Origin: Halovenus aranensis
GTDB taxonomy: Archaea; Halobacteriota; Halobacteria; Halobacteriales; Haloarculaceae
Assembly (NCBI RefSeq): GCF_900100385.1
Contig: NZ_FNFC01000002.1
Location: forward strand, 144,458 to 208,457
Direction of reading: 5' to 3'
DNA: 64,000 nt
Shown here: piece by piece, positions 4,752 to 23,967 of the stretch
Position numbering within the stretch: the first letter of the stretch is position 1
Layout: each line of letters begins with the position of its first letter
Translations under genes and position numbers: made by a program
The notes under the pieces: generated by a model
Databases searched by the model: none
What the model was told of the DNA's origin: nothing
Seen by the model: the letters and a program-made list of their open reading frames with translations, nothing else

Positions 4752-5132
4752 ATGCATTCTTTCGAACGAGAGTTTTGGACCGTCGTTCTAGTGATTTTTT
4801 GCATACTTGATACTGTCACCACTGCAGTTGTCTTAACTCTCGGTGGCTACGAGTCTGCACAACCTGCCGGATGGTTTTATAGCCAGTTTGGTATCGCAGG
4901 ACTGGCACTACACAAGCTGTTGTTTGCTGTGGCTCTTGCTATCATCTGGGTTGCCTACCATCGATTGGATAATGTGTTCACCGATGGGACTGGTAGCTAC
5001 CGACTCTTGCTGCCGACACTGATAGCAAGCCGAGGGGCTTGGATTGTGGTCTGGAACGTGTCTGTGGTAGCTGAGCTACTTGGTGTCCCAACAATTGTTG
5101 ACATCCCGAATCCGAACGTGATGTTCCAATGA
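4752..5132 (+). CDS. Small polytopic membrane protein, first gene of the envelope operon
   Basis: 126 residues from ATG 4752 with about four hydrophobic segments (near 8-28, 38-64, 76-92 and 95-112). It ends in an ATGA overlap with the giant surface-protein gene at 5129, so the two are translationally coupled. An in-frame upstream start at 4593 lies inside the pseudo-tRNA and was rejected. The third-codon GC is lower than in later genes of the operon. The pattern loosely resembles DUF5658-type proteins, but I make no functional call. Confidence 0.65.
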   Translation: MHSFEREFWTVVLVIFCILDTVTTAVVLTLGGYESAQPAGWFYSQFGIAGLALHKLLFAVALAIIWVAYHRLDNVFTDGTGSYRLLLPTLIASRGAWIVVWNVSVVAELLGVPTIVDIPNPNVMFQ

Positions 5133-8100
5133 TCAGACAAACGCTATTAGACGATAAAAACAGTAGTACCGTCGCACCTGTTGCGTTGGCAATTGTCATT
5201 ATTGTCGGCTTACAGGTTGCTCCATTTTTGGCGATCGTTCGTGGTGCGGACACAAATCCATCATATTCGGTGTCTTCATCTAGTAATTCCCTGACACAGT
5301 CCTCTGAAAACAAGTTAGCCGTTATCGACGTTTACGACGGTACGAACGGGCCGTTCCTTGATTTAGCAACATCTAACGGTAAAGTGTACGGAGTCGGAAC
5401 AAATTCTGGCTCTACAGTTATCGATGCAAGTACGATGACGAATCTACAAAAATCTTCTCAAAAATGGGATATAATTAAAACTGCTGGAAGTTATGTCTAT
5501 ACCGGCAGTGGGACTGCGAAAGTCTCAAACAAGCTTGGCAAAGCGCCAAAAAGCAATATCTCAGATACAATTACGTCAACTGGCTATCAAGATATCGCAC
5601 TTAACGACTCTACCATATTTACCGGCGGATACAACGGTAACTATGTCATTGAACTACGCTCACGAAGTGATTTGACAAAAAAGAAAAGTATATCATGGGG
5701 AACATTTACACTTGGTATTGAGTACGCTGAGAATGAAGTATTTGTATTTGAGGGTAACTCGATATCCGTGTATGATACAGCACTTGAAACTGAGAAGCGG
5801 ACAACATCACAAACAAACGATCATCAGGATGGACTAGTATACAGCAATAAAGTTGTCACTGCAACTAATGATGGTGTAAGAATATTCGATAAAAACACTC
5901 TTACGCTAGAAGTCACTCAGGAGTGGGGTACTTACGTTCACGATGTTGCCGTCACTGATGATTATATTTATGCAGCAGGTGATAACGGTGTAGTCACTCA
6001 GCTTGATTGGAATGGGAATATTATCCACTCGCTTAACATCTCATCAAAAGGCATTAACTCAATTGAAGCAGATGACAATGGTGAGTCTATATTCGCGTCC
6101 ACGAACAACAACAAAATCCACAAACTCACCACCGGCCCCTTTGTAACTGGAACTGTCACAGACACTGATGGAAATGCAATTTCTGGAGCAACTGTTATTG
6201 GTGCTAGCTCAGAGATTGCAACCGACCAAGATGGCTCATATACCCTTCCTCTCAATACGTCAGCTACTAGTTCAGATGTTGAGATAACCGCTCAGAGTTT
6301 AGTTGATGAAAATACCAAGAAGGTGTCCGTACCCGCATCAAACGTTGATTTTACGCTGGCAAACGGCGATGTCGGGGGTCAAGTTCTCGCCTGCTCGCCA
6401 GACGATCTCAATTGCGTTGACCCGTCGCCGCTCCCGAATGCCACTGTCGAGATCGTCGGCTTAGACCACGTTGAAATCGAGAACTATTTCAGCGATATCT
6501 CTTCACCGGAGGAAGCCAAGCAGAAAGCTGAAAATATCCTCGAAGACGCGCGCTCGTGGGACATCAATTTTGACGCAGACTTGAGCGTCTTCGAAGATGT
6601 TGCCAATGCCAATTCGGAAGCGACGTACCCACTGATTCACAGTCCTGAAGACTGGGGTATCCGCGGTGACTCATCACTGACTGACAAGTTCATCGCGGGC
6701 GAACGACCAGATCTCGAAAACCCGATGGTCACGGTTCCAGCCGACGAGGAGGTTATACTGAGCCTGTGGGACCCGACACAGCAGAGCACTGGCTTTCTCG
6801 ACAACCTCTTCGAAGACTTCGCCTCGGAGGATGTCGTCGGCTCGCCGGTCGACGGCAAAGTCGACATCACACAGCTCGGGCCGAGTGGTGAGGACATGGG
6901 AACTACGGGTCTTCCAATTAAATCTGACGTGCAGTCCGTCGATGTAAGCGAACCTGTTGGCATTACGACGGGCACAGAAGAGGTTCCTGTTCGGTCGTTC
7001 ACCTTCTCCGAGGGATTCTACGAGGTGAGTGTTGAGGACTCATCGGCTGCGTACATCGTCAAAGCCGGCGACCCAGATGTTGAAGAGCTGTATCCTGGCT
7101 ACTTCCACGACCTAAAAGACAAACAGGGAGAGTTGCTTGACAAGGCAAAGAAACTGGAGAACTTATCAAACGCTGGCATTCTCAACACGACGACCGTGCA
7201 GGCCGACGAAAACGGCCGCTGGAGTGCGGACCTTCCGTCGTCGACAAAGACTGTCGGTGTCACTGCTTGGAAGGGGCCGAAGAACTTGCTCGACGTGCAA
7301 GATATCGAGAACGCCGACACATCCGTCCAAGCATACATCCAGAACCTCCGCTCGGAAGCCATCACACAAATTGAGTCGCAGTTAGAATCGACCATCGACG
7401 ACCTGGTCGCGAAGGGGCAGGATATTGAGAATCCAGAGGACATCCGGAACATCAGCGATGTGGTGAACTCAACGGAGGTATCGTTATCCGACATCAAATC
7501 TGAGATGAACCAGTCGAACTTCGAGAACTCACTCCTTGATGAGAAAATCTACGCGCCACGCGAGCCCGTCGAACTCTCGGTCGGTGAGAACGCAGATATT
7601 GAGACGACACGCGTGGCTGCGGACTCGTTCATCAATCCCGGTATCTACAACGAGATTGTCAACTCACAGTACGAGGAGTTCTTGAACGACCATCTCGACT
7701 CGCTGTTCTCGGAACTGGACGTGCCGCTTGATGAGATTGACAGTCTGGGGCAACTGGACTCGTTCTTACAGGACTTACTCAAAGACCGCGAGGAAATGAC
7801 GAGTCGAATTGACGAGATGGAGTCGTTGATAGAGCGTCTGAAAAACCAGCAGGGGCAACTCAGCGAAGAGGAACTGCGGCAGATTCTCGGCGAACTTGAC
7901 CTCAACACAAACATCGAGAATATCGACGAACTCAACAAGGCCATCGCCGAGCTGGGGAACATCTTCCCAGAGGACCCGAGCAACGAACCGCCGGAGGACC
8001 TCCTCCAGCGGATATCCGCGCTCGAATCGACGATTTCGGCACTCGAGGAAACCGTCTCCAGCCCTGATGACACGAGCGAGATAACGGATGGCCTTTACTC

Positions 8101-9247
8101 GGGCGAATTCCACTTCCCCTCGGAAGTCGCTGCCGACAGCACGACGGTCTGGATTGACTGGGCAGACAGCACGAACGCCCGGCAGATAACAAACCCGGAG
8201 ACGGGCGACCCAGTTACGTCCGAGCCAATCCAGGGGAGCAGCCGTCTCTCGGATGAGTACTGGTCTATCTCCGGCTCGGGACTGTTCGGAGATGCGGACG
8301 TCGTCTCCATTGAGGACGTGCCTATCCCGGACGATATGGCAATTGCCGACGTGCGCGTCGAGACAGTCGCCGGTGGTGCACCGAAAGAAAGCGAGAACTC
8401 GGTTCAGAACCCGGCATTCAGTGGCGATATCCCGTCACTCTCGTCGGTTGACCTCTCGACGCTCCGCCCGGCGGCTGATGACCAGGTCCGCGTCAACCTC
8501 GTGGCTGACAAGAGTCGGTACGAGCGCATCGTGGACGTGAGTGCCTACGGCCCGAACGGGAACCCGACGAATGCAGAGGTTGACCGTGTTGAGGATGCTG
8601 CACTTGTCTCGATGAACGGGACGGGAGCGCACTGGATAGAAGTGGTGTACCAGTCCACGAGTGGGCACAACTTCACGCACGACTTCCAGCTACAGGCAGT
8701 TGGTGACGGAGGCGGTACGCCCGCGCCGACAATCCAGTTCGACCGCGGGCCGAGCGGGACCATCGGAATGGCCGGTGATGGTGTTCGCGAGGTGAACATT
8801 GAGGAATTGCCCGCCCAGAATAAGGCCAACATCGAGGTCGTGGCGGCGGACACGGACATCTCTGGCCTGCACGTCCGAACGCTGAACCAAGTGAGCGCTG
8901 AAACCATCAGCGTCGACGTTGTGGCTGGCGACGAGCGCGTGAGCGTCTCGAAGCATGTCACCGTCTACTTGCACAAGAACCTCGCCGACGACACGCTTGT
9001 CTGGCGGAATGGGGATGCAGTCCCGCACGCCGGAAATCCGTTCGGGGAGTATCTCAAGGAGGACGGCTTGGTCTTGACCTACTCGGATGATACGGGGAAG
9101 GTAGACGTGTCGCTGGAGCCTGACCCTGGAGTACTTGACCGCGCACAGCACTGGATTGACCTGCAAATTCAGAGCTTCCCGTCGCCGTTCGCACTGATAC
9201 CAGCCGTCCTTGCACTCCCGTTCATCCGCCGGAGGTGGTTTGTGTGA
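5129..9247 (+). CDS. Giant membrane-anchored surface protein with propeller-like head and coiled coil
   Basis: 1372 residues. A hydrophobic segment at about 15-38 is a signal anchor or uncleaved signal. Residues 60-330 show repeated short strands of the kind seen in beta-propellers. Residues 335-405 look like a carboxypeptidase-regulatory (Ig-like) domain (GTVTDTDGNAISGATV). The middle is acidic. Residues 850-975 are strong heptad coiled coil. The C-terminus ends in a hydrophobic helix followed by RRR, a membrane anchor. This is the architecture of an external stalk or adhesin with a cytoplasmic tail. The first third of the gene (to about 6360) is clearly AT-richer than the rest, suggesting a swapped head. 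The stop overlaps the protease start (GTGA). Confidence 0.8.
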   Translation: MIRQTLLDDKNSSTVAPVALAIVIIVGLQVAPFLAIVRGADTNPSYSVSSSSNSLTQSSENKLAVIDVYDGTNGPFLDLATSNGKVYGVGTNSGSTVIDASTMTNLQKSSQKWDIIKTAGSYVYTGSGTAKVSNKLGKAPKSNISDTITSTGYQDIALNDSTIFTGGYNGNYVIELRSRSDLTKKKSISWGTFTLGIEYAENEVFVFEGNSISVYDTALETEKRTTSQTNDHQDGLVYSNKVVTATNDGVRIFDKNTLTLEVTQEWGTYVHDVAVTDDYIYAAGDNGVVTQLDWNGNIIHSLNISSKGINSIEADDNGESIFASTNNNKIHKLTTGPFVTGTVTDTDGNAISGATVIGASSEIATDQDGSYTLPLNTSATSSDVEITAQSLVDENTKKVSVPASNVDFTLANGDVGGQVLACSPDDLNCVDPSPLPNATVEIVGLDHVEIENYFSDISSPEEAKQKAENILEDARSWDINFDADLSVFEDVANANSEATYPLIHSPEDWGIRGDSSLTDKFIAGERPDLENPMVTVPADEEVILSLWDPTQQSTGFLDNLFEDFASEDVVGSPVDGKVDITQLGPSGEDMGTTGLPIKSDVQSVDVSEPVGITTGTEEVPVRSFTFSEGFYEVSVEDSSAAYIVKAGDPDVEELYPGYFHDLKDKQGELLDKAKKLENLSNAGILNTTTVQADENGRWSADLPSSTKTVGVTAWKGPKNLLDVQDIENADTSVQAYIQNLRSEAITQIESQLESTIDDLVAKGQDIENPEDIRNISDVVNSTEVSLSDIKSEMNQSNFENSLLDEKIYAPREPVELSVGENADIETTRVAADSFINPGIYNEIVNSQYEEFLNDHLDSLFSELDVPLDEIDSLGQLDSFLQDLLKDREEMTSRIDEMESLIERLKNQQGQLSEEELRQILGELDLNTNIENIDELNKAIAELGNIFPEDPSNEPPEDLLQRISALESTISALEETVSSPDDTSEITDGLYSGEFHFPSEVAADSTTVWIDWADSTNARQITNPETGDPVTSEPIQGSSRLSDEYWSISGSGLFGDADVVSIEDVPIPDDMAIADVRVETVAGGAPKESENSVQNPAFSGDIPSLSSVDLSTLRPAADDQVRVNLVADKSRYERIVDVSAYGPNGNPTNAEVDRVEDAALVSMNGTGAHWIEVVYQSTSGHNFTHDFQLQAVGDGGGTPAPTIQFDRGPSGTIGMAGDGVREVNIEELPAQNKANIEVVAADTDISGLHVRTLNQVSAETISVDVVAGDERVSVSKHVTVYLHKNLADDTLVWRNGDAVPHAGNPFGEYLKEDGLVLTYSDDTGKVDVSLEPDPGVLDRAQHWIDLQIQSFPSPFALIPAVLALPFIRRRWFV

Positions 9248-10896
9248 CAGACATGACCGATAACATTGACAACACTGACACCGAGACAGACGTACAGTTC
9301 GACGAGGAACAGACCCGTCGCGAGTTCATGCTCGGCGCGGGGACGGCCGCAACGGCCGCTACACTCCCGTTTGGCCTTGAATCAGCGTGGCTGAACACGG
9401 TATCACTCTCTCCACTGGCGGCCGAGAACATCGACCTCTTTGGCGGACTCTCCGCTCGCGATGAAACGCTGTTACACTCCGATAATCGCGTCTCGATGCA
9501 CGTGCCGTTCTCCGGCTCGGAGTCAGACATTCAGGCGTGGGTTGACGAGTCCGACGACCGCACGCTCGTGTCGGTCGATACGGCGACGGAGACAGCGACT
9601 ATCATCATGCCGCTGTCCGATGTTGTCTCCCGTGTCTTCTCGTCGCCATCGCTGAGCGACCAGGAGTGGGTAGATACGGAGCGAGATATCGACATCCGAA
9701 CGGAACTCTCGCGGCCAGAGCCTGTCGACCTCGACGATGATGCATCTGTCCCAGTCAGCCGACTGGAGCGGGTGGCACTTGGTTTCGATAACGTCTCCCC
9801 GCTGGACAAAGGCAACGGCGTTGCATTCAGTGAGGATGCCTCCAAAGGCTCGCTCCGAGCGGCCCGCCAGTCGACGAACGCACCGGACTCCTTGGTCCAG
9901 GGCGCAGCGACCGGCAACGTGACCGTGGCGGTCATCGACACCGGTGCGAACACCGCTGGCGGCGCGGTCTTCGGCGGCACCACCATCCTCGACGCGAGCT
10001 GGAACGCTATCTCGGACACGACGGTGGCCGAGGGGGGTGTCGACGCGGTCGCCGACGGCGCTGGGCACGGCTCACACGTCGCTTCGACTATCGCAGCGGA
10101 CCCCGGAAACGGAGTGATGGAGGAGTACACGGGCTACCTGCCGGGCTGTGATTTGCTCGTCATCAAGGCGCTCGGTGATGATGGAAGCGGCAACACGGAC
10201 AATATCGCCCGCGCGGTCACGTACGCGGCAGACCAGGGCGCGGACCTGCTCTGCATGTCGCTCGGCTCACCCGTGTGGAGCGTCGAACTCGACCGGGCCA
10301 TCTCGTACGCAGCTGGGAGTGGCGTCGTCCCGTTTATCGCTGCGGGTAACGCCCGAACGCGCCAGACGTGGGTCGCCTCGCCTGCCGACGCCGGCGACGC
10401 GGCCGCCATCGCCGCCGGAACCATCGCCAGTCAACCCAGCGACATCGAAATCGCGTACTTCTCGAACATCGGTCCTGACCCCGGCACGCGCGACCTCTCA
10501 GGCGGCGCGACAGAAGGCAGTGACCCCGATCTGGCTGGCCCAGGAATGAAACTGGACGCCCTCGTTGCGGACTCCGCCGGTGACACGTCGTTCAAGGCGC
10601 TCTCTGGCACGTCGATGGCAACGCCGTGTGTTGTCGGAGCGGCGGGCCTTGTTTTAGCCGAGACGAGCGTCGGGGCCGACGACCTCGTTGCCCACATGCA
10701 GGACCACGCGCAACGACTCGAACAGGCGGGCGTTCACGAGGCAGGCGCGGGCTACCCGGACGTAGACCGTGCAATCAACGGGACCGCGACTGCCGACACG
10801 CAGGAGACGATCCGGACAGACGAGGCACAGACCCGTGACACAGCCTACGAGCGGCTGAGTGACGCACAGGGTGGCTTCCTCGCTGGACTCTTCTGA
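9244..10896 (+). CDS. Tat-exported subtilisin-like serine protease (S8)
   Basis: 550 residues from GTG 9244, which overlaps the previous stop and follows a GGAGGTGG ribosome site at 9231-9238; ATG 9253 is the alternative. A twin-arginine signal (RREFMLGAG) lies near residue 25. The catalytic triad is intact: Asp232 (AVIDTG), His275 (GHGSH) and Ser457 (LSGTSMATP), with oxyanion Asn369 (AAGN). A pro-region of about 180 residues precedes the domain, and no C-terminal anchor is seen. Its position between surface-protein genes suggests it processes or remodels the products of this operon outside the cell, an inference from context. Confidence 0.92.
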   Translation: MTDMTDNIDNTDTETDVQFDEEQTRREFMLGAGTAATAATLPFGLESAWLNTVSLSPLAAENIDLFGGLSARDETLLHSDNRVSMHVPFSGSESDIQAWVDESDDRTLVSVDTATETATIIMPLSDVVSRVFSSPSLSDQEWVDTERDIDIRTELSRPEPVDLDDDASVPVSRLERVALGFDNVSPLDKGNGVAFSEDASKGSLRAARQSTNAPDSLVQGAATGNVTVAVIDTGANTAGGAVFGGTTILDASWNAISDTTVAEGGVDAVADGAGHGSHVASTIAADPGNGVMEEYTGYLPGCDLLVIKALGDDGSGNTDNIARAVTYAADQGADLLCMSLGSPVWSVELDRAISYAAGSGVVPFIAAGNARTRQTWVASPADAGDAAAIAAGTIASQPSDIEIAYFSNIGPDPGTRDLSGGATEGSDPDLAGPGMKLDALVADSAGDTSFKALSGTSMATPCVVGAAGLVLAETSVGADDLVAHMQDHAQRLEQAGVHEAGAGYPDVDRAINGTATADTQETIRTDEAQTRDTAYERLSDAQGGFLAGLF

Positions 10897-10907
10897 GGGA
10901 GGATACA

Positions 10908-11687
10908 ATGCCAACGCGACGCCAATACTTGCAGTCCCTCGCAGCCGCGGGTGGCGCGACCGTCGTTGTCGAGAGTGCCAGTGCGGCGGATTTGGATGAC
11001 ATCGACAGCGAGTACAGCCATGTTGACACCAGCTTCGAGCAGGCAACTCTCGAACAGTTCCAGCCACGCCTGCTCGTTGACGGCGAAACAAGGCCGAACC
11101 TTCGCAACCAGCTCGCGTGGGTGGCGCGCTCGGACGAGTACGACACAACGGCGTGTTGCTACGTTACGCGATACTCGCATCAAGAAGGACTCACCGGGCT
11201 GGACAGCCACCTCTACGATACCGAGCCAGTGTACGTGTTCGTCGACGAGGACGCTGGCACGGTCGACGAAGTCATTTTCACGGGCTGGCACTGGAACGCG
11301 GCCGCTGTCTCTGGCTCGGCAGCGCCGCTGTCAGCACAGCGGACTGACACAGAGACACACGTCTCGTTGACTGTCGTCTCGCCGTGGCACAACTACGTGC
11401 TTGCGCGACCCGATTCGGGCGCGTTCTTTGGGCTGACAGACTGGCACGCCCGCCGGTCGTATCTCGTCGATAACGGCCTGTACGAGCGCGGTGCTGTGGA
11501 GGCGTTTGAGGAACCATGGACGATGCACTCGGACCACGGCGCTCGCGGTGGCTGGTGGAACGAGAAACTGTTCCTCCAGGCCGACGGCCCGCTCCCAATC
11601 CGCGTCAACATCGACTACCTCACGATGCGCGTGTGGCGACGAATCGGCATTCGTGGCTGGTCTGACCGTGCCGAGAACCTTCGATAA
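10908..11687 (+). CDS. Tat-exported hypothetical protein
   Basis: 259 residues starting with a Tat signal (TRRQYLQSLAAAGG) and an Ala-rich cleavage region near residue 27. The mature part is rich in Trp, His and Tyr and has mixed strands, with no recognised catalytic motif. A strong GGGAGGA ribosome site precedes ATG 10908, 11 bases after the protease stop, so it is co-transcribed with the protease. It is probably an extracellular or membrane-surface component. No family recognised. Confidence 0.7.
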   Translation: MPTRRQYLQSLAAAGGATVVVESASAADLDDIDSEYSHVDTSFEQATLEQFQPRLLVDGETRPNLRNQLAWVARSDEYDTTACCYVTRYSHQEGLTGLDSHLYDTEPVYVFVDEDAGTVDEVIFTGWHWNAAAVSGSAAPLSAQRTDTETHVSLTVVSPWHNYVLARPDSGAFFGLTDWHARRSYLVDNGLYERGAVEAFEEPWTMHSDHGARGGWWNEKLFLQADGPLPIRVNIDYLTMRVWRRIGIRGWSDRAENLR

Positions 11688-11809
11688 CTCATCAATGTCA
11701 CTGCCATACTACACACTCCAGAACCCGCCGCCGCCACCGGTCCCACCACCGGTTTCGATGTCGGTGGCCGTTGTATCGTCCGCTCACTACTTGCAGTTCT
11801 CAAACATCA

Positions 11810-12913
11810 ATGAGACAGTACCTACCAGACGCACGGATAGCACAGCTTTTCGTCGTGTTGCTAGCTGTCGGGGCAGTCATCACGGCTGGTCCGATGGCAG
11901 CCTCGGCAGCGACTACGGTGACGCTAGCCGGCGACGGGACCGACACCATCAACAACTTCACCGCCTCAGAGAACGACTACATCGAGTATTCCGTGTCATC
12001 AGATGGGACGGATTTCAGCACTGATGGAACCACGACCATCAAGATGAACATCACCCACAACGGGGTGGAGCACGCGACCTACTCGAACGACTCTGTTGAC
12101 GGCGCTTCGGCGTCCCACTTGATCAGACTCTCGCAGGCCGAGCTGGATACGCTCCCGGGACAGATCAACCAGACGACGACGGTGAACGTCACCACCTGGG
12201 GGGTGGACTCGAACGGCAACATCGCGACGACGGCCAATGAGTTCCAGGTAGACATCGTCTTCGATGAATCGCGGTCGGTCATGTACATCGAGGATGACAG
12301 CGACTCTGCAGTCGACGTTGAGGAGGTCGACGACGGCCTCCTGTCGATGAGTACGCTGTCTTCACTCAACCCGTTGAGTGACGATGACGATGAGATGGAA
12401 AACAACTACCACATTGAGGAGGACCGCGACGTGGTCGGCAACACCACAACGGTCCACATCAAAAACGCGGGCGATGATAACCTGACGAGTGCTTTCGAGG
12501 ACAGCGCGGACGGTTACGACGACAGCGGAACGCCAGTCCTCGGTATGAGCGTGCTGGCCGACGACGAGGTAATTCCGGTCTTCAATTCGGAGCGGAATGA
12601 CGACATCGTCGACGCCAGCGACACGTACGCGGTCTACGAGGGTAACGGCGACCTTCGCATCGAAATCGGCGACGACTATGGGAGCAGTGACACAGTGACG
12701 CTCCAGAGTTCGTCAGCCGACCCGCTCAGCGACAGTATCGACATGTCGCTGTCGGACGTGGAGAGCGCGTACAACGACGGCCTCAGTAGTTCGGACATCC
12801 GCGACCAGTTCGGCATCTTGACGTGGGTGTTCTCGTTCTCGCCGCTGCTGCTCGGCGGTATCGGCGTCATCACCGTGCGGCGGCGTCGGCTCAAAGGCGA
12901 GACGGAGGCGTAA
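11810..12913 (+). CDS. Exported surface protein with C-terminal membrane anchor
   Basis: 367 residues from ATG 11810. It has a Sec-type signal (LFVVLLAVGAVITAG, cleavage near ASA), a very acidic Thr/Asp-rich ectodomain, and a C-terminal hydrophobic helix (about 335-355) followed by RRRR. This is the topology of haloarchaeal S-layer-like or spike-like proteins. It ends 1 base before the next gene. The 122-base gap upstream holds a proline-rich frame (from 11695) that I did not accept. The specific role is unknown. Confidence 0.7.
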   Translation: MRQYLPDARIAQLFVVLLAVGAVITAGPMAASAATTVTLAGDGTDTINNFTASENDYIEYSVSSDGTDFSTDGTTTIKMNITHNGVEHATYSNDSVDGASASHLIRLSQAELDTLPGQINQTTTVNVTTWGVDSNGNIATTANEFQVDIVFDESRSVMYIEDDSDSAVDVEEVDDGLLSMSTLSSLNPLSDDDDEMENNYHIEEDRDVVGNTTTVHIKNAGDDNLTSAFEDSADGYDDSGTPVLGMSVLADDEVIPVFNSERNDDIVDASDTYAVYEGNGDLRIEIGDDYGSSDTVTLQSSSADPLSDSIDMSLSDVESAYNDGLSSSDIRDQFGILTWVFSFSPLLLGGIGVITVRRRRLKGETEA

Positions 12914-12914
12914 T

Positions 12915-13187
12915 ATGGCACAGCGTAGCCAAGCACTCTGGCGGATTCTCGCACTCTTGTACGGCATGACTATCGCCGCGTTCATCTCGGGCATCGTCAC
13001 GCTCGTCGGCTTCATCTGGATGCTTGTCGACATCCCGTGGCAGCTAATCACCGGCCGCAACGACCTCTCCGAAGACTCGGGGCCGGCGTCGCTCGTCAGC
13101 ACGACCATTCTCTGGAACACAGAGATGCTGATTTTCAGTCTGACGGGCGGTGGGCCAAAGCGCCTCGTCTGGCTGCCCGGACGGTAG
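12915..13187 (+). CDS. Small membrane protein
   Basis: 90 residues with a long hydrophobic stretch at about 12-45 (one or two helices) and a more polar C-terminal half with a second weak hydrophobic patch. Its ATG lies directly after the previous stop, so it is translationally coupled to the anchored surface protein. It may be a membrane subunit of the complex encoded by the operon. No family recognised. Confidence 0.6.
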   Translation: MAQRSQALWRILALLYGMTIAAFISGIVTLVGFIWMLVDIPWQLITGRNDLSEDSGPASLVSTTILWNTEMLIFSLTGGGPKRLVWLPGR

Positions 13188-13215: not shown

Positions 13216-13271
13216 GCAGGACTGGTTGTGAGCCACAGCAGTGGCTTGTCGGGTTCGAGTCCCGACCCTGC
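13216..13271 (+). ncRNA. tRNA-like structure between two genes of the envelope operon
   Basis: A closing stem GCAGG/CCTGC (13216-13220 with 13267-13271) encloses two hairpins. One is AGCCAC/GTGGCT with a 4-base loop (13231-13246). The other has a 6-bp stem GTCGGG/CCCGAC with the canonical T-loop TTCGAGT (13248-13266). This is the 3' half of a tRNA without a D-arm or a usable anticodon loop, for example the variable arm, T-arm and acceptor of a Ser/Leu-type tRNA. It ends 5 bases before the next start codon. It could be a tRNA fragment, an attachment scar or a structured leader. Confidence 0.38.
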
Positions 13272-13276
13272 CCTCG

Positions 13277-13957
13277 ATGAGTCAGCAAACCAATCCAACA
13301 CGGCGACAGGTGCTTCGGCGGACCGGTGCCGGAGTAGCGACCGTCGCGACGGCCGCCGCTGGCGGGACGGCTCTGGCTGGCCGTGGCACGGCAGACTCCG
13401 GCCCGTCGGGCCTGTTCGCCGACGAAGAAATCTCGTACAGTGAGGCAACCTTCGGCTACGTGACCGGGCTGATGACCGGTGTCCGCGCGTGGGCGTCCAA
13501 CGAATTAACGGGCTCGTCGTCGCTGCGCCTAGAAGGCCACGTCGACGACATCGTCGAAGAGTACTGCGACCACGAGCAGGACTGGGTGTCGTGGGTTAAC
13601 GACCGCGACCTCGGGAGCGCTGACCGCCAGTCGGCGGCGATAACGTTCGAGCATGGCGACGAGGAGACGACGCGCTACGTGCGAGCCGATTACGACACGA
13701 GCGCTGAGGAGTACGCCGGCACGACCTTCTCGACGGACGCTGTTGACGACCCGGATATCACGGCGACAATCCGCGGGATTGCTGTCGAGAACGCCGCCGA
13801 CGAGCTGGCCGACCTTCACGCAGAGTTCATCAAGCCCAACGAGGATATCTCGACGGGCTACGCGTCACGACTGGCGGGCCGGTACACAATCGGCAACTCC
13901 GAGGGAACACACATCACGAGCAGCCTCCTCGGCGAGTTCTCGACGGAGGGGCTGTAA
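13277..13957 (+). CDS. Tat-exported hypothetical protein
   Basis: 226 residues from ATG 13277. The Tat signal is clear (TRRQVLRRTGAGVATVATAAAGG). The mature protein is acidic, about 190 residues, with an early segment YVTGLMTGVRAWASNEL and no cysteine pairs or catalytic motif that I know. The in-frame GTG at 13241 would run through the tRNA-like sequence and was rejected. It is the third Tat substrate in the operon, which implies folded extracytoplasmic parts. No family recognised. Confidence 0.68.
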   Translation: MSQQTNPTRRQVLRRTGAGVATVATAAAGGTALAGRGTADSGPSGLFADEEISYSEATFGYVTGLMTGVRAWASNELTGSSSLRLEGHVDDIVEEYCDHEQDWVSWVNDRDLGSADRQSAAITFEHGDEETTRYVRADYDTSAEEYAGTTFSTDAVDDPDITATIRGIAVENAADELADLHAEFIKPNEDISTGYASRLAGRYTIGNSEGTHITSSLLGEFSTEGL

Positions 13958-14184: not shown

Positions 14185-14189
14185 TCGCA

Positions 14190-15388: not shown

Positions 15389-15604
15389 ATGAGCTTGTTA
15401 GAACTACCAAACACATCGAAAGGGGTACTGATAGCACTGGCAATCATCGCTGTCGTCGTGAGTGCGCTGTTCGCGTCGACGCTGTTGACGGTGGCGGTCG
15501 CCGCGGTCATCATCGCGATACTCACGTACTTGGTGTACATCGTCGGCAGCCGGATTCACCGCTGGCTACTCAACGCGTCGGTCACGCCGGGGCGATCATC
15601 ATGA
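15389..15604 (+). CDS. Small membrane protein (71 aa)
   Basis: Residues 13-52 are almost entirely hydrophobic and can form two helices; the C-terminus is basic. Its stop overlaps the start of the next gene (ATGA at 15601-15604). It belongs to the same run of tiny membrane proteins as its neighbours. Confidence 0.6.
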   Translation: MSLLELPNTSKGVLIALAIIAVVVSALFASTLLTVAVAAVIIAILTYLVYIVGSRIHRWLLNASVTPGRSS

Positions 15605-15858
15605 GTGCGATATTGCTGGCAGTTGTCGGGGTTCTGGCCGCGCTCGGGATTGCGTACTGGTATCCAGAGCGGACGGAGTGGGCACTACAACGCATTCTGG
15701 TTGCACGGCGGGCCATCTTCTCTGCAGTGGCCGTTCTCACAGCGTTCATCTTCTTAGGTACCGGGAGTCCGATCTTGGTGACTGTCGGCTTCGTGATGAT
15801 TGTGTTGATGGTCTGGACCGTGTTTTTCGAGACGAATATCGAGGAGGCGGTGAGATAA
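15601..15858 (+). CDS. Small membrane protein (85 aa)
   Basis: Three hydrophobic segments (about 2-20, 36-54 and 55-75) with few charges between them. It is translationally coupled to the preceding gene by ATGA. The next gene begins 1 base after its stop. No family recognised. Confidence 0.6.
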   Translation: MSAILLAVVGVLAALGIAYWYPERTEWALQRILVARRAIFSAVAVLTAFIFLGTGSPILVTVGFVMIVLMVWTVFFETNIEEAVR

Positions 15859-15859: not shown

Positions 15860-16384
15860 ATGCAACGCAAACTCGACGGACTAGAGCGGCTTCGTGGTGA
15901 CGTCGAGCGACTGGTCAAGCGGAACAGCCTCGACGAAGATGTTCGATACGAACTGAACGAGAGGCTGCGAGAGGCTGACCGTCTCGCCGAAGTTGTTCTC
16001 GTCCGGGATGGTTTTCTCGACTTCCTGAGCAGACACATCTCGCATGAGCACACGCGATACACACAACCGGAGCGGTTAGGCAACGACGGGACAGAGCGAC
16101 AGGAACCGCTCTGTCTCTGTAACGACCGGTACTGTCCACTCAAGAAGGGAGAGCTTCCACGGCAGATTCGCGTCGCTGACGACCCGCGTGAGGCGATGCG
16201 TACCTACGCCGACAGCCATGCTGGTGAACCGGTCGTCATCCACGATGCACGAGACGAGTTCCGGGAGCGCGTTGTCGACTGCTGGTATCAGCATCGTCGC
16301 ATCCTCAACTGCGCGCAGAACAACACGCTCCCCGACGAACTGGGGGCATCGGGACAGTCGCATCAGGAGCCGGCTGACGACTAA
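15860..16384 (+). CDS. Cytoplasmic hypothetical protein with a cysteine cluster
   Basis: 174 residues, charged and helical at the N-terminus (a coiled-coil-like stretch from residue 3 to 50). A cysteine group LCLCNDRYC lies near residue 85, with further cysteines near the C-terminus, possibly a metal site. There is no signal or membrane segment. It is the last gene before a 57-base gap and the ATPase gene, so it may be a soluble partner of the ATPase. Confidence 0.6.
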   Translation: MQRKLDGLERLRGDVERLVKRNSLDEDVRYELNERLREADRLAEVVLVRDGFLDFLSRHISHEHTRYTQPERLGNDGTERQEPLCLCNDRYCPLKKGELPRQIRVADDPREAMRTYADSHAGEPVVIHDARDEFRERVVDCWYQHRRILNCAQNNTLPDELGASGQSHQEPADD

Positions 16385-16441: not shown

Positions 16442-18724
16442 ATGTCATCAGACGACCACCGAACGAAAGTCGATTTCACAGTCAGCAAAGAGTCAAAGCG
16501 TCAGTACTGGGACCGCGAGGAACGCATCGAGGCACTCATCGAGAAGTGTTCGCGATGCCTGGAACACGGCACTCAGGAAAAGTACCAGTTCGCCGCGCAG
16601 AAGTTGGCGGGCGAGTTGGGACCACTGCTTGAGGCCCACACCTCTCGCCACCTGCTGTCGTTCGACGAGGCAGTTACCGACCACGAGGATTGGAATTTTG
16701 CCACCTTCGCTCGCTGGTACGACGAGCAAGAGTCGTTCATTCGCTTCTTCCGGACAGAGTATCTGACTGCGAGCCAGTCGCGCCGGGAGTGGTACGTCGA
16801 CGGCTTGGAGGCCGCACTTCGCTCGATGACAGCGATTGCCGAGCAGTCCGGTATCGTCCACGACGCGTATGCAGGCCGCGCCGACGCCGTCGGCTTCGAA
16901 ATGAAACTGGGTGAGCATCTCCAAGACGGCGAGATGGATATCGGCGACCCGCTGGAGTTAGTCACTGACAAGCAGGTTGATACGCTCAAGTGGCTCGTCT
17001 GTGGCGGGACTGGGTTGGGCAAGTCGACTGGAACCGAGCGATTCATCGAAGACTATCTCGCCGCTTCACAGCGTCCTGGTCGGGACTACAAAGTCTGTGA
17101 CATCCTCGGGATGCGGCAGGGAGAGAACTGGCTGCCGGACGTGCCTCAGCAACAGGATGACCTTCGCCGCGTTCGCGAAGAGCATGGCCTACCGCCCTCG
17201 TTCGTTGACCACGACGACTACGAACCGCCGGAGATAGAGATTCTTCATCCGATAACCCAGGGGTTCAGCAAGCATCAACTCCCCTTCGATGTCGATGCCG
17301 AGGAGTTCGTCGTGCGACCGTTCACTGTGCCAGCCTCGGCGTTCCGAAAGCCGGTGATGGTGTCGCTGCTCATGTCTCGTCTCTCCGAGAGCGAGGAGGC
17401 CACCATCCGCGAAGTGTACGACGATATCGAGCAGGCGAAAGACGACTGGTCGCTGAAAGACCTCGCCGACGAAATCGCCGGCCGCCAAGAACTCTCGGAC
17501 AAGCACAAGAGCAAAGCAATCGGCGTGTTGCGGTCGCTCCAGAATGAAGGGTTCATCCGCACCGCTGCAGACCAACACACGCTCGACTGGGACGCTGTCC
17601 TCAGTGATACGGACACGTACTCGATTTTTTCACAATCGCTGTGTGACAGCGACCTCTCTGCGCTGATGACGTTCGCGTATCTGCTCGACTCCATCTACCG
17701 ACAACGTGAGAACAGCAATGCCGACTCCGAGGTTGTGCTGGTGATGCGAGAGCTCTGGGAAGTGATGCCCCATACTCGTCGACGGTCGTTCGACGCTCGT
17801 GAAGCGGCCGTCCAAGAGGCAATCGGCCAGATCGGCATGAAGGTCATGCGCCAGAACCGACACGCCGGAATCCATGTCGTCGCAGATACACAGGAGCCGA
17901 ACGACCTCCTGAAATCTATCCGCGAACTGTTCAACCACTACGTCGTCTACTCAGCGAACAAGGACACCATCGACGACATTTTCGAGTGGACACAGAACAA
18001 CCGGACGCGGTCGTTCTGGTCGACGATGACGGCGAAGGCAGGGCAGGCTGGCGTAGTTGGGCAGGCAGAACCAGCTATCGAAAATCGGGATATCGAGTTT
18101 ATCTCTCCAGTCGAAGTGACGCCACCGTCACATCACCACTTCGACGTGAAACGTGACGGGACTGGCTGGCACGCCCGAGCCAAGTACTTCACACCCCTCG
18201 AAGTGTGCCCAGAGTGCGACAGCGACGCTATCGAGCGGAGCGAGGATGGTTACTACGTCACCTGCACAGAGTGTGGCGAGCGGTCGCTGGATGGCTCTGG
18301 TGGCCGCTGTGAGGAACTCCGCCGGCCAGCATCGACTGACGCGGTTCACTGGCAAGATGAGGTACCACCAGAACTCGAGATAGACCCCTTTGGCGAGCAA
18401 GTCGGTGGCGGCACCGCGCCAGATCCAGAGACGTTCCCAGTCCGAGCGTTCGCTTACGAGTGCCTCACTCGCGCGCCAGGAACGAATACGGCGAAGAAAC
18501 ACATCTACGCCGCGTTCAACGAGTTCGCAGCCGACCACGGCCACGACCGCTGGGACTTCGACTCCCGAAGTAAACTCACAGAGTTCGGCACAGCGCTCAA
18601 ACAACACATCGAGGGGTCCCTCAAGTCGACGACTGTCGAGACGCCCGAAGGAGACGCAAAAGCCTATCAAGACCTGCGACTCACCAAGATCGGCACCGAA
18701 TACCGAGATATGACTGGGCGGTGA
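16442..18724 (+). CDS. HerA/FtsK-superfamily ATPase with a C-terminal zinc ribbon
   Basis: 760 residues, cytoplasmic. The Walker A loop GGTGLGKST is at 188-196. The Walker B strand VVLVMRE is at 431-437, with the usual Asp replaced by Arg but the catalytic Glu kept. A sensor-like strand VVADTQEPNDL (479-489) carries the conserved Gln of HerA/VirD4/VirB4-type ATPases. A zinc ribbon follows at Cys589, Cys592, Cys608 and Cys611, then a helical C-terminal domain. Such ATPases pump DNA or drive secretion and assembly at the membrane; here it is the only motor in an operon of envelope proteins. It has its own upstream gap and may be separately transcribed. Confidence 0.82.
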   Translation: MSSDDHRTKVDFTVSKESKRQYWDREERIEALIEKCSRCLEHGTQEKYQFAAQKLAGELGPLLEAHTSRHLLSFDEAVTDHEDWNFATFARWYDEQESFIRFFRTEYLTASQSRREWYVDGLEAALRSMTAIAEQSGIVHDAYAGRADAVGFEMKLGEHLQDGEMDIGDPLELVTDKQVDTLKWLVCGGTGLGKSTGTERFIEDYLAASQRPGRDYKVCDILGMRQGENWLPDVPQQQDDLRRVREEHGLPPSFVDHDDYEPPEIEILHPITQGFSKHQLPFDVDAEEFVVRPFTVPASAFRKPVMVSLLMSRLSESEEATIREVYDDIEQAKDDWSLKDLADEIAGRQELSDKHKSKAIGVLRSLQNEGFIRTAADQHTLDWDAVLSDTDTYSIFSQSLCDSDLSALMTFAYLLDSIYRQRENSNADSEVVLVMRELWEVMPHTRRRSFDAREAAVQEAIGQIGMKVMRQNRHAGIHVVADTQEPNDLLKSIRELFNHYVVYSANKDTIDDIFEWTQNNRTRSFWSTMTAKAGQAGVVGQAEPAIENRDIEFISPVEVTPPSHHHFDVKRDGTGWHARAKYFTPLEVCPECDSDAIERSEDGYYVTCTECGERSLDGSGGRCEELRRPASTDAVHWQDEVPPELEIDPFGEQVGGGTAPDPETFPVRAFAYECLTRAPGTNTAKKHIYAAFNEFAADHGHDRWDFDSRSKLTEFGTALKQHIEGSLKSTTVETPEGDAKAYQDLRLTKIGTEYRDMTGR

Positions 18725-19052: not shown

Positions 19053-19400
19053 ATGCACAACACCACACCACAAATCATCGCTGAGGGGACCGTCATCCCC
19101 AACGGGGATGCAGCACAGGTCTACTTCGAGAAAGCCTACACGCAGCAGATCGGCTTTCCGCTGGAACCGGGCAACAGGTTCACATCGTTGCTGGTTCCCG
19201 ATCAGGCCATCGTCTTGCTTCCAGAGCGAGCCGATTTCTCGTTCCCCGTCGACGTGACTGTCCGCTCTGCAGACCAGTACCAGCTCGACATCGAGATGCC
19301 CGATAGTATCGACACGCGAGACAAACACCGAGCAGAAAGACGACCCGCCGATATAGAACGGGGGAATAGCCTTTCTGACGACAGAGGTGAGCGTCGATGA
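19053..19400 (+). CDS. Hypothetical protein, first gene of the distal envelope block
   Basis: 115 residues. Residues 5-85 are a mixed strand-rich domain, followed by a charged tail (KHRAERRPADIERGNS). There is no membrane segment. It is coupled to the next gene by an ATGA overlap. No family recognised. Confidence 0.6.
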   Translation: MHNTTPQIIAEGTVIPNGDAAQVYFEKAYTQQIGFPLEPGNRFTSLLVPDQAIVLLPERADFSFPVDVTVRSADQYQLDIEMPDSIDTRDKHRAERRPADIERGNSLSDDRGERR

Positions 19401-20356
19401 ATCAGGCATCAACGACGACTAACAAGCGATTTGTCGGTCAGCCGAACCAGGACCTCGACGAAATCTCTGACCCGCACACCATCGAAGACGACTCCAAGAC
19501 CTCACTCACCGAGCGTATCCGAAACAACTGGATAAAGGCCGCCTTCGGGACCGTCTTCGGCGTCGTCGGCCTCGCGATTGCACTGACCTACACGAGTTCG
19601 CTCTACCCCGAACTCGCCGGCAATCGCTACGTCCGGCTGGGCGTCCCGCTCCTGCTGTGGACGGCACTCATCGCATACGCCGCCGACCAGCGTCGCCTCG
19701 GACTGCTCTCGGGATACGACTGGCTCGTCCTGTCGACCGAGGACGGCCCCGTTCGCTTTGTCGGCGAAGCCCACACCGAGGGGACGCCGACGTTCGTCCC
19801 CTACAAGGGGTTTGACCGGCTGGGACGGCCACGCGGCCCCTACACAGTCGAAGAAGTAAACGAGCGACTACCAGATACCATCTCGAACCACACGACGGAC
19901 GCCGATGACCCGGCCCGGATTCGGTTGCATCCGGCTTTCGTCCAGCTTGCGAGTACCGACCTCGGACATGTCATCACGCAGGAGACGACCGCGCTCGCGA
20001 GCGACTATCCTGCGAGTGAAGCGACCCACCACGCGCCAGAACCAGAACTCATCCGACAAGGAGTCTCGGAGGAACTCAAGCGGACAATCGAGCAAGAGCG
20101 CGAAGAGGTCCAGCAACTTCGCGACGAGATGGAGATGATGCGGCGACAGCTCCAGAACGCGAAAGACAACGGTGCGAAGACGACGGAGGAGATGATGGAA
20201 GAGTTCCTTGAGTTCTACGAACGGATAGAAGTGGCATCGAGTCGCTCTCGAACGAACGTCGACACGGCAACGAACGGCGATATGCCGGTTGGGGATACCG
20301 CACTCCAGACGCGGATGAATCAGGTCGAGCAGGAGGTGACGCCCGATGATGACTAA
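19397..20356 (+). CDS. Two-helix membrane protein with cytoplasmic coiled coil
   Basis: 319 residues. Membrane helices lie at about 48-68 and 75-96, then a soluble domain, and a strong coiled coil at about 222-285 (EELKRTIEQEREEVQQLRDEM region). The composition is GC-rich like the following genes. Its end overlaps the next gene by 11 bases. The topology suits a scaffold linking membrane and cytoplasmic parts of a complex. No family recognised. Confidence 0.65.
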   Translation: MNQASTTTNKRFVGQPNQDLDEISDPHTIEDDSKTSLTERIRNNWIKAAFGTVFGVVGLAIALTYTSSLYPELAGNRYVRLGVPLLLWTALIAYAADQRRLGLLSGYDWLVLSTEDGPVRFVGEAHTEGTPTFVPYKGFDRLGRPRGPYTVEEVNERLPDTISNHTTDADDPARIRLHPAFVQLASTDLGHVITQETTALASDYPASEATHHAPEPELIRQGVSEELKRTIEQEREEVQQLRDEMEMMRRQLQNAKDNGAKTTEEMMEEFLEFYERIEVASSRSRTNVDTATNGDMPVGDTALQTRMNQVEQEVTPDDD

Positions 20357-21977
20357 CGCTGTTTCGACACGCCGGGTTGCTTGGCGCCTAGTCGTCTTCG
20401 TGGCGGTCGTGCTGGCCGTCGGCGTCGCCGTCGCGACCGCGCCGGCCGCAGCACAGTCGACTGTCGACAACAACCAGTCCGCCAGCGCGGCAGACCTCAT
20501 TGTCGAACAGCCCAACTACGTCGACACCGACGTGCAACGACAGTCACAGGACGGTATCCCCGTCTATATCGTCGAGGGAGAGACCATCCACGTCGCCCCG
20601 GAGAACTTCGAGATGGACGCCGTCGAGTCGTTCGGCCTCGTGACTGGTGCAGGCTCGCTCTCCGCTGATGACGAGTGGGGGCGCTACACGCTGGACACGG
20701 GCGGCGAAACCGGTTCGTTCCGGCTGTATTGGGAGACGACAGAGACAGTTACCGTCGCGCAGGGCAACAAAACGACGACCGAGGAGCGCGTCGAGCGATT
20801 CGAGGCTATCGTGCGCGTCGACGACCAAGCGGACGTGACGGTCCTCTCCAGCGCGCAGGCCCAGCAGACACAGCAGGACGCCCAGCGCTGGCAGGAGTTC
20901 AACGCGACGGTTACTGACATCCGCAACTCGGATATGGTCGGCCACATCTTCTCCGAGCCGCAGTCCAACGAGGATGTCATCCAGGGGATGATAAACGCAT
21001 ATCTGACGAGTCGGTCGCCGTTCCACCTACTCTCCGGTGGCTTCACGGCTGGCGTCATTATCATGTCGACGACCGTGGGCGGGCTGTTCCTGCTCGGGCT
21101 GCTCAAAATCCCGGACCTGCTCATCGTCCGCCGGGTCTGGGCCGAAGTGCGTCGGTACCGCGGACTCGAAGAAGAGGAAGGCGATATCTCTGAACGCCAG
21201 GAGCAACTCGACTTCGAGCGCCGGATGGCGAATCTCTCGAACTGGGAGTTGAACGACATCCCTTCGGTCACCGACCACGAGGCCGCCGAGCTACGCAAAG
21301 CCGGACTCGGTGAGAACCCACTTGAGATGTTGCTGACGCTGGTGTACGGCTTTGCGCCGGAGCGTCTGAAAGAGACGGAATTGCTCGCGATGGGCGACGA
21401 CGGTTACGCCTTCCAGGTCGACAGTGACGACAAGGTGGCTGCGGACGGCGGTTCACCGGTACGTGTTGTTGATCTTGATGCAGAACTGAGGCCGGGTGAG
21501 ACACTGGCCGAGCGCGATGACCTCCGCGAGATCGACCCGACGGCCACCGACTGGGACGAACTCGTGGCCGGCGTCTCACCGGACGATGCCCGGCTCTGTG
21601 AGTTCGACGTGCGTGAGGCCGACGTGGACCCGGCGGCAATCGACCGGGAGATGCCATCGCTGGACCTACGCTCGCTCGTCGAGGAGTTCGATTTCTCCGA
21701 GTGGGCGTTCGAGGATGACGAGCGTGTAGGGGAGATCCTCGTCGAGTTCATGGAGCTAATCCGCGACCACCCGGTGACCGATGACGACGGCCAGGTCGAC
21801 GAGGTGCGACTCCAGCTTGAGCAACTCCTGCAGGTGATGCAGTTCGCTCGCGATACCGAGCAGTTCCCCCACGCCGACAAGCTGGCCCAGCACTTCCAGG
21901 CCGCGACCCGCGCGTACGACCAAGACGACGACCTACACGAGTTCCTCCAGAACCATCGAGACAATCATGATGCATAG
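20346..21977 (+). CDS. Signal-bearing single-pass membrane protein
   Basis: 543 residues. It has a Sec-type signal at 1-37 (cleavage near PAAAQS), an extracytoplasmic domain to about 220, one membrane helix at about 232-256, and a large acidic cytoplasmic domain of nearly 290 residues. This type I topology, with a big domain on each side, suits a transmembrane coupler between outer components and a cytoplasmic machine. It overlaps both neighbours. No family recognised. Confidence 0.68.
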   Translation: MMTNAVSTRRVAWRLVVFVAVVLAVGVAVATAPAAAQSTVDNNQSASAADLIVEQPNYVDTDVQRQSQDGIPVYIVEGETIHVAPENFEMDAVESFGLVTGAGSLSADDEWGRYTLDTGGETGSFRLYWETTETVTVAQGNKTTTEERVERFEAIVRVDDQADVTVLSSAQAQQTQQDAQRWQEFNATVTDIRNSDMVGHIFSEPQSNEDVIQGMINAYLTSRSPFHLLSGGFTAGVIIMSTTVGGLFLLGLLKIPDLLIVRRVWAEVRRYRGLEEEEGDISERQEQLDFERRMANLSNWELNDIPSVTDHEAAELRKAGLGENPLEMLLTLVYGFAPERLKETELLAMGDDGYAFQVDSDDKVAADGGSPVRVVDLDAELRPGETLAERDDLREIDPTATDWDELVAGVSPDDARLCEFDVREADVDPAAIDREMPSLDLRSLVEEFDFSEWAFEDDERVGEILVEFMELIRDHPVTDDDGQVDEVRLQLEQLLQVMQFARDTEQFPHADKLAQHFQAATRAYDQDDDLHEFLQNHRDNHDA

Positions 21978-23967
21978 CTTCATCGCAACGACCGGCCGGA
22001 CTGTCCTGCAAACGTCCGACCTCAATGTCCCTGAGCGAACACAGGGGCAGTTCGTGCTGTCGCTGTTTGCGGTCGCGGTCATCATTATCGCACTGCTCGC
22101 GGCCTACCGACGGACGCGATTCGCCGGTCTCGACGGAGACGCCGCGGAACACAAGAGCGCGCTGCTGGGTGCGATGCGCGAGCAGACGCCCGAAACCCTG
22201 CATATCCCTCGGAGTGCCGACGTCGACGACTACCGCGAGAACCTCGTCGACGCCTTCGACCGAGTCGAGAAGCGAGCTCGTGAGAACGCTGCCGTTGCGC
22301 ATAACCCAGAGCGGGTGCCCGTCAGGGAGGCAGCGCGGAAGGTCGCACGGTCGCTGTACGAGTCCAGCGAACAAACACTACCGACGGTCCCACAGGCGAC
22401 GATTCGGGTGGGCGTGTTGGCGATTGCCGTCGCAGTCCTGGGCGCGCTTGCCGTCTCGACCGAGTGGATTGTTGACCAGCTCACCCGGGACGCTGGTGGC
22501 GGTGGCGGGCCCGGACTCGGGGCGCTCGTCGGCCATGCCGTGTCGCTGACCGAGAGTGCCGTCGACGGCGTCATCTCCGTCTTGGCTGTCTTCCCCGGAG
22601 CGGTCGAACTCGCGGGCATCCTGTTCGCTATCGGTGTTCTTGCGTTCACAATCCTGTACGAGAACTATCTACTGATGGCTGTCTTACTGGGCCTTCTCGC
22701 CGGCGGGATTGCTGTGCTCGACCGCGAAGTCCCTGACGAGATCGACACTACGTTGTACCGCCATGACCGGTCGTCGCTCATGCTGGTGAGCGTCGGCGCT
22801 GTCGTCGCGGTGTGGCTCGCCGGCGTCATCCCGACCGCCACCGGGGCACTCATCGGCGACGTTGACCTCATCGTCGTGACCATCCCGTTCCCGACGCTCG
22901 GGGCAGGGCTCGGTGGGCTGCTGTCGCTCGGGACCGTCGCACTCCTGTTGCGGATGGCGTTCCGGTCCCTACGGGTTCGGATGCGACACGCGGCGACGAT
23001 TGACTGGGACGAGGGACCGGACCTCCTGGTTGCCGGCTATCTCGTGACAACCTACGTCGGGTTGGGGCTCGCACTCGTGGCTGCCCCGCTCGTCCCGGCG
23101 TATCTGGCCGCGATATTCGTCCAGGGTGCAGCCGTCGAGATTCTGGCGGCGCTGTTCATGGCCGACGCACTGGTTCAGGTCGGGCTGCTAGCGGTCGTGT
23201 TGGCCGTCTGTGGTGGTATCGCGTACGTCGCGCGGGATCAGTGGGACGATGTCCACGCCGCCGTCTCCGAGGCACTCTCTCGACAGGCAGTCCGGCTCGC
23301 GCTGTTCCGTCGCGGGACGACCATCGGCGCTGGACTGTTCGCGTTCGCGCTGTTGTACGCCTTGCTCCGGAGCGCGGTGCTGGCGCTCGCCGGGGCGCTA
23401 CTGTTCGGAGCGGTCGTCCACGCAGGGTACGTGATTGTCGACCGTGCAGCGCACCGCCTCTCGCTGGTTGGCGATGCTGACCCACGGGGACGCGGCGCGC
23501 TCATCCAGTGTTATGCGCTCCCGGATGCTGACGAGGACTACCATCTCGTCGCGAAGGTCGGGAGTGAGTATCGCGTCTCCCGGCGAGACGTTGACGCAAC
23601 CGTCGACGACGTACTGCGCGTGGCCGATGCAGCACAGCATGGCGATGACCCACCGATAGTCATCGGCCGGAAGCGTGCCGAGGACCTGCTCGAACTCGGG
23701 CAGGTCGACGCGGATGTCGTCGACGAACTGCGCGAACGCGTCCGGAAAAAACTCCGCTACCAGACACAGCCCGGCGACCGCCAGGTCTCGAAAGACGAGC
23801 TCGAAGAGATGATGAGTGAGTTCCCTGAGTCAATCTGGCGGCCGCAAATCGAGCACTGGGAGCAGTTGGGCATCCTCATCGACCACGGCGACCGTCTGGA
23901 GCGGACCGGCGACCCGTGGAGTGCCGACGGGCTTTCGCTTTCCGGGCAGAATCGGGCCGGCCCGTAG
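21967..23967 (+). CDS. Large polytopic membrane protein
   Basis: 666 residues. One helix lies near 27-46, then a charged domain to about 130, then roughly nine or ten hydrophobic helices between about 138 and 500, and a soluble C-terminal domain with winged-helix character (about 515-650). It overlaps the preceding gene by 11 bases and ends the operon. The channel-like size suggests the central membrane component of the system. No transporter motif is recognised. Confidence 0.7.
   Translation: MMHSFIATTGRTVLQTSDLNVPERTQGQFVLSLFAVAVIIIALLAAYRRTRFAGLDGDAAEHKSALLGAMREQTPETLHIPRSADVDDYRENLVDAFDRVEKRARENAAVAHNPERVPVREAARKVARSLYESSEQTLPTVPQATIRVGVLAIAVAVLGALAVSTEWIVDQLTRDAGGGGGPGLGALVGHAVSLTESAVDGVISVLAVFPGAVELAGILFAIGVLAFTILYENYLLMAVLLGLLAGGIAVLDREVPDEIDTTLYRHDRSSLMLVSVGAVVAVWLAGVIPTATGALIGDVDLIVVTIPFPTLGAGLGGLLSLGTVALLLRMAFRSLRVRMRHAATIDWDEGPDLLVAGYLVTTYVGLGLALVAAPLVPAYLAAIFVQGAAVEILAALFMADALVQVGLLAVVLAVCGGIAYVARDQWDDVHAAVSEALSRQAVRLALFRRGTTIGAGLFAFALLYALLRSAVLALAGALLFGAVVHAGYVIVDRAAHRLSLVGDADPRGRGALIQCYALPDADEDYHLVAKVGSEYRVSRRDVDATVDDVLRVADAAQHGDDPPIVIGRKRAEDLLELGQVDADVVDELRERVRKKLRYQTQPGDRQVSKDELEEMMSEFPESIWRPQIEHWEQLGILIDHGDRLERTGDPWSADGLSLSGQNRAGP

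Follow-up and report, generated by a model that had tools for sequence, protein, structure and literature searches.

Genes of the block and their surroundings

The window analysed here is a stretch of 64,000 nucleotides (C42:144458-208457) on contig C42 (318,875 bases) of a 3.29-Mb haloarchaeal assembly. Within it, a block of about 19 kb at 4752-23967 is intact, with every ORF on the plus strand. ORFs overlap by 4 bases at 5129, 14181, 14441, 15601, 18721 and 19397, by 11 bases at 20346 and 21967 and by 13 bases at 9235, so the ORF calls bear out a preliminary description of co-directional genes with 4- and 11-base overlaps. ORF numbers below follow pR1SE (Halorubrum lacusprofundi, KX687704); pR1SE-type loci are called type A, and those arranged like the window type B.

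4752..5132, +: 126-aa membrane protein, weak DUF5658 match
5129..9247, +: ORF6 homologue of 1372 aa with hydrophobic termini (BLASTP to pR1SE ORF6, E 3e-44)
9235..10896, +: ORF7 homologue, Tat-exported subtilase (Peptidase_S8, E 2.6e-31; pR1SE ORF7, E 6e-48)
10908..11687, +: ORF8 homologue, Tat-exported, 259 aa (pR1SE ORF8, E 5e-19)
11771..12913, +: ORF9 homologue, surface protein anchored at its C-terminus (pR1SE ORF9, E 1e-5; TM prediction)
12915..13187, +: ORF10 homologue, short membrane protein that matches the type A ORF10 profile at 97%
13241..13957, +: ORF14 homologue, third Tat substrate, 238 aa (profile match 99.9%)
13960..14184, +: 74-aa membrane protein in the variable region
14181..14444, +: 87-aa membrane protein found in most type-B loci
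14441..15376, +: ORF17 homologue, N-terminally anchored surface protein (47% to L002; profile match 96% to type A ORF17)
15389..15604, +: 71-aa membrane protein at the ORF18 position
15601..15858, +: 85-aa membrane protein, probable ORF19 homologue (profile match 70%)
15860..16384, +: soluble protein of 174 aa, CxC-x3-C motif at its centre (in 17/17 type-B loci)
16442..18724, +: ORF25 homologue, ATPase of the FtsK/HerA type that has a zinc ribbon and a Pox_D5-like tail (profile match 99%, 540 columns)
19053..19400, +: ORF20 homologue, 115 aa (profile match 98%)
19397..20356, +: ORF22 homologue, membrane protein with C-terminal coiled coil (profile match 97%)
20346..21977, +: ORF23 homologue, N-terminal beta domain, two TM and a long cytoplasmic part (profile match 95%)
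21967..23967, +: ORF24 homologue, polytopic, about 14 hydrophobic peaks (profile match 96%)

For the first gene, ATG 4752 is the likelier start codon, the alternative being TTG 4593; the product has no homologue in the compared loci and is therefore accessory at most. An 86-aa ORF at 18721-18981 gave no BLAST match against the compared plasmids and is probably not a real gene. The ORF6 homologue has a carboxypeptidase-regulatory-like domain (Pfam) and, judged from its sequence, appears to be the anchored stalk of the envelope module; its length and hydrophobic ends agree with the 1372-residue stalk described earlier. Also confirmed were the Tat-exported subtilase and two further Tat substrates; the Tat motifs are RREFM in ORF7, RRQYL in ORF8 and RRQVL in the 238-aa protein. 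The catalytic residues of the subtilase are intact, with Asp235, His278, Asn372 and Ser460 invariant across an alignment of 31 homologues. At least six membrane proteins under 100 residues had been claimed, and we count five (starting at 12915, 13960, 14181, 15389 and 15601). A low-confidence AF2 model of ORF23 from four sequences (pLDDT 51) has 10 strands in residues 46-160, and Foldseek found weak beta-sandwich matches only (best E 0.013).

GC content is lower over some 60 kb that include the block (C42 about 120-180 kb), and there is an integrase at C42:116888. Genes flanking this region are conserved in the genus but are not adjacent in relatives. A search for a clean insertion site found no tRNA-His repeat and no long direct repeats at the island ends. 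Left of the block are a type I CRISPR-Cas operon (Cas3, Cas_TM1802; L077:7324-17000), with its last array repeat at window 3-32, and two Cdc6-like genes (L077:3531-4574 and 6082-7116). The latter, together with repeats of 34 and 32 bases at a spacing of about 9.4 kb (C42:119964 and 129383), possibly mark a replication origin of the element. A 414-aa ORF at window 696-1940 (+) reads like a TnpB-family protein. Beyond the block, a very high GC3 ORF at 26069-27052 (-), overlapped by an alternative frame, has a weak PADLOC Cmr3 match (E 1e-7) and no Pfam family; a serine resolvase follows at 27943-28878 (Pfam E 5e-28). Three adjacent small ORFs at 31391-33653 (-) have stretches in common (for example VSPVFxxKI) and seem to be one gene in diverged copies. 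At 35091-38206 (-), near tRNA-His on the right side of the low-GC region, a DUF7845 protein with a winged HTH adjoins an N6/N4 DNA methyltransferase.

Relation to pR1SE and occurrence of type B

As relayed by PMC10818511 (citing Erdmann 2017), pR1SE spreads in membrane vesicles carrying plasmid-encoded proteins. BLASTP places homologues of its ORF6-7-8-9 in the block in the same order, which is the arrangement used to recognise cluster 1 of apHPVs. A tblastn search with the 259-aa Tat protein found 18 haloarchaeal plasmids, pR1SE included. The same search with the ATPase found four complete circular plasmids, all with the same gene series (Halomontanus rarus, 76 kb; Salinigranum rubrum, 39 kb; Natrinema pallidum, 71 kb; Natronorubrum daqingense, 55 kb). 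By BLAST, the second half of the block matches these four plasmids, and against pR1SE only the ATPase is matched (E 1.5e-4). Since the rest of this half was beyond BLAST, family profiles were compared. We gathered 17 type-B and 21 type-A loci, and the profile matrix used all 17 type-B and 4 type-A loci. Matches are one-to-one for ORF10, 14, 17, 19, 20, 22, 23, 24 and 25, with every other cell at or below 22% except for a duplicate column in which the ORF16 and ORF17 seeds converged on the same proteins. Most of the second half (module 2) is therefore homologous between the types. Profile comparison detected no homology between the 71-aa protein (15389..15604) and ORF18.

Gene order in type A is 17-18-19-20-21-22-23-24-ATPase, and in type B it is 17-71aa-85aa-174aa-ATPase-[AAA-VWA]-20-22-23-24. 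In PMC10818511, gene order within clusters is conserved in all complete apHPVs and cluster 2 runs 17-21-23-24-25, with the ATPase last, whereas every one of the 17 type-B loci has its ATPase gene between ORF19 and ORF20. ORF22-24 are inverted in two loci (G017 and G305). Of the six apHPV markers (ORF6, 8, 17, 21, 23 and 24), of which PMC10818511 asks for at least five, all but ORF21 were matched with profiles made here in place of the published HMMs and score limits. No type-B protein matches the ORF21 profile. The 174-aa protein, present in type B only, is about as long as ORF21, and both have Cys motifs near the centre, though the motifs differ and profile comparison detected no homology between the two; that it stands in for ORF21 is possible, and a guess. 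The ATPase is of the ORF25 type, with the profile match extending over 540 columns and the REL and TQ motifs shared with type A.

Like pR1SE and the apHPVs, type B has two modules with a variable region between them, homologous ORF6-10 and ORF14 in the same order, and homologues of ORF17, 20, 22, 23, 24, 25 and probably 19. It differs in the position of the ATPase, the missing ORF21, the extra Cys-motif protein, the AAA-VWA pair of some relatives and a module 2 too diverged for BLAST, the ATPase excepted. By these comparisons type B reads as a divergent, rearranged second lineage of the probable DNA-loading genes of pR1SE and not as an unknown machine. The earlier term ‘unrecognised’ thus fails for the kind of machine, which is related to pR1SE, and holds for the arrangement of its second half; no description of type B was found in the open-licence literature searched, in which pR1SE is taken up after PMC10818511 by two reviews. 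A survey of conserved gene order, also proposed in the preliminary description, found the synteny on plasmids and integrated elements. The order is common to 17 loci from many genera, far beyond chance.

Type B occurs in 15 of 391 haloarchaeal genomes, beside 27 with the pR1SE type, and so adds about half as many carriers again. The type-B ATPase profile gave 15 strong matches (E <1e-70), and five others (1e-9 to 1e-13) are type-A ATPases; the type-A profile matches 28 genomes, one of them weakly. This genome search replaced a pattern scan of genome contigs, which had found two loci only. Both types occur together in two genomes (G120 and G090). Besides the four complete circular plasmids (39-76 kb), chromosome-sized contigs carry type B in at least 5 of the 15 genomes. 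ORF8 was found in 41 of the 391 genomes, at 55 places: 33 near a type-A ATPase, 16 near a type-B ATPase and 6 near neither. All 15 type-B ATPases have an ORF8 within 15 kb, and this marker accompanies almost every core of either type.

Some loci show further variation. Three type-A ATPase genes have one in-frame stop each (G116:C1:30887, G090:C35:29332 and G280:C52:40141) and are perhaps decaying copies. The envelope module of the Natronorubrum daqingense plasmid has two subtilase genes (L005:4-1587 and 5973-7511). Several plasmids, with both types represented, have genes annotated with a type IV pilin N-terminal domain next to the core (L003:24858-25780, L007:16167-16634, L008:587-1105 and L010:10744-11190); the window has none there.

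The ATPase and the exchange of modules

The Walker A motif of the window ATPase reads GGTGLGKST. The protein matches FtsK_SpoIIIE (Pfam E 8e-4), PADLOC HerA (E 3e-5) and a zinc ribbon (E 0.003), weakly in each case but in a consistent way. FtsK-HerA ATPases have a conserved Gln following strand 4. In the alignment, a Walker A-like motif, DTQ/DSQ and, where Walker B is expected, RE[LM] are conserved in each of the 17 type-B ATPases, with Arg in place of Asp before the Walker B Glu. The features of the FtsK-HerA superfamily (Walker A, acidic Walker B end and conserved Gln) are all present. The zinc-ribbon HerA/FtsK ATPase described earlier therefore stands for the window, but not for the type, as only 5 of the 17 have a zinc ribbon. 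An AF2 model from four sequences had no confident core (pLDDT 48). Sequence search of the PDB gave no match for the type-B ATPase profile and one weak match for the type-A profile.

C-terminal tails of type-B ATPases are of more than one kind. The window ATPase and some relatives have a Pox_D5-like tail (Pfam E 3.7e-5 to 0.11), and six type-B ATPases have a short tail around NGxSxRxIRxxIPNNPxTGNPYS, which had no database match and which we read from its sequence as a putative helix-turn-helix. The AAA-VWA pair is present in five of the six short-tail loci and in none of the 11 others. This suggests an association and no more, since the four independent pairs that agree are too few for significance.

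The two modules have different histories. A single change is enough to divide type A from type B in the ORF22 tree (support 100). The ORF7 tree requires 11 type changes, where shuffling the labels gives 10.7, and a single type-B clade is rejected for it by an AU test (p 7e-8); the ORF8 tree requires 12 against 11.6, and the ORF14 tree 10 against 12.2. These are quick trees, and the argument rests on the change counts and not on single branches. The envelope half (ORF7 and ORF8) is shuffled between the two loading lineages as if at random, and by its tree the ORF14 homologue is exchanged with it. Individual pairs show the same mosaic. G362 (type B) and G085 (type A) are 47, 73, 64 and 42% identical in ORF6, 7, 8 and 14, but only 24% in ORF17, beyond which nothing is significant except a short ORF20 stretch. 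In contrast, G362 and G203, both type B, are 28, 38 and 26% identical in ORF6-8 but 51-76% in module 2. The exchange point falls between ORF14 and ORF17, a region described as variable in PMC10818511, and the ORF17 homologue (14441..15376) is the first gene of the loading module. Host family was considered as a driver of envelope exchange; it gave a weak signal on both modules and is not claimed.

An earlier proposal assigns vesicle structure to cluster 1 and packaging to cluster 2 (PMC10818511), and the exchange of envelope genes supports this two-part reading. We lean slightly toward a broader view, in which haloarchaeal vesicle plasmids would combine a shared, freely moving envelope module with a separately evolving module for DNA loading, of which there would be no fewer than two kinds of ancient divergence (pR1SE type and type B), the tail of the type-B motor being swapped too, with the AAA-VWA pair. 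PMC10818511 lists 41 apHPVs, and 34 of 38 incomplete elements are cluster-1-only and read as possible remnants. If the broader view is true, many ‘incomplete’ elements in which only cluster 1 was recognised would be complete type-B elements.

Proposed function and alternatives

We consider it likely, by homology to pR1SE, that the block serves a mobile element of the pR1SE kind as its transfer core. This element, integrated into or joined to a chromosome, would form plasmid vesicles and load them with DNA by means of its ATPase. This explanation is preferred because ORF6-9 lie in pR1SE order and module 2 matches one-to-one by profile; because the synteny is the same in 17 type-B and 21 type-A loci; because ORF8 lies near every type-B ATPase and the core is found on complete circular plasmids; and because the clean ORF22 split, set against shuffled ORF7 and ORF8, is joined by the mosaic pairs. 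Counted against it are the different ATPase position and the missing ORF21, which was found in pR1SE vesicles.

Module 1 (5129-13957: ORF6-10 and ORF14) would form the outer face of a membrane vesicle, built from the stalk and a coat protein, both anchored, and from partners exported by the Tat route, and the exported subtilase ORF7 may mature the envelope proteins. Module 2 (14441-23967: ORF17-20, ORF22-24, the 174-aa protein and the ATPase) would form a membrane complex. Its FtsK/HerA-type ATPase would recognise the double-stranded DNA of the element, probably via the C-terminal tail, and pump it into the budding vesicle, which would later deliver it to another cell. Homology of the parts, their order, the intact catalytic residues and the separate evolution of the two modules are observed; that type B makes such vesicles, what each protein does and that the ATPase drives loading, we infer. 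Vesicle assembly was one option of the preliminary description, and it gains support from the homologous pR1SE proteins found in plasmid-carrying vesicles, as PMC10818511 reports (citing Erdmann 2017). Evidence for plasmid transfer in vesicles built with plasmid-encoded proteins comes from a single plasmid. Another loading module, and envelope genes swapped in nature between the two types, support the proposed split between envelope and loading, and type B supplies small complete plasmids such as that of Salinigranum rubrum.

The preliminary description also offered a conjugation-like apparatus, which we now think unlikely. In such contact-dependent DNA transfer the ATPase would act as VirB4 or TrwB and the surface proteins would join cells, with vesicles as a by-product. 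The FtsK/HerA superfamily ATPase, the multi-membrane-protein complex and the long anchored stalk would suit it, and conjugative type IV secretion (VirB4, TrwB/VirD4) likewise has an ATPase of this broad superfamily together with membrane proteins. However, no pilin, no VirB-type channel proteins and no relaxase (Pfam, block proteins) were found in the block, and the four type-B plasmids were all typed non-mobilizable, by MOB typing built on known relaxases. Transfer of pR1SE, moreover, needs no cell contact (PMC10818511).

Somewhat less probable still is that the host has retained the integrated locus as a domesticated system, for secretion or at the cell surface, which no longer moves DNA. 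Chromosome-sized contigs in at least a third of the type-B genomes would fit, as would the window locus, where no clean ends or att repeats were found; the same core on complete circular plasmids argues for a mobile element instead, as do window genes that are intact yet absent from other members of the genus in the sample.

Membrane-enveloped archaeal viruses such as pleolipoviruses likewise have an anchored spike-like protein, an ATPase and a membrane particle, but the gene set here is much larger. A true virus with an undescribed membrane virion, the remaining earlier option, is nonetheless very improbable: although an ATPase of packaging type, together with a protease for maturation, is reminiscent of viruses, the ten largest proteins gave no convincing PHROG capsid match and three proteins had no match among 50,697 phage records. 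The type-B core does lie on two IMG/VR contigs classed as viral (L079/L080, IMGVR_UViG_3300046051), but such contigs can be misclassified plasmids. No complete pR1SE-like element was found in IMG/VR by PMC10818511; the two type-B contigs are identical in the stretch compared.
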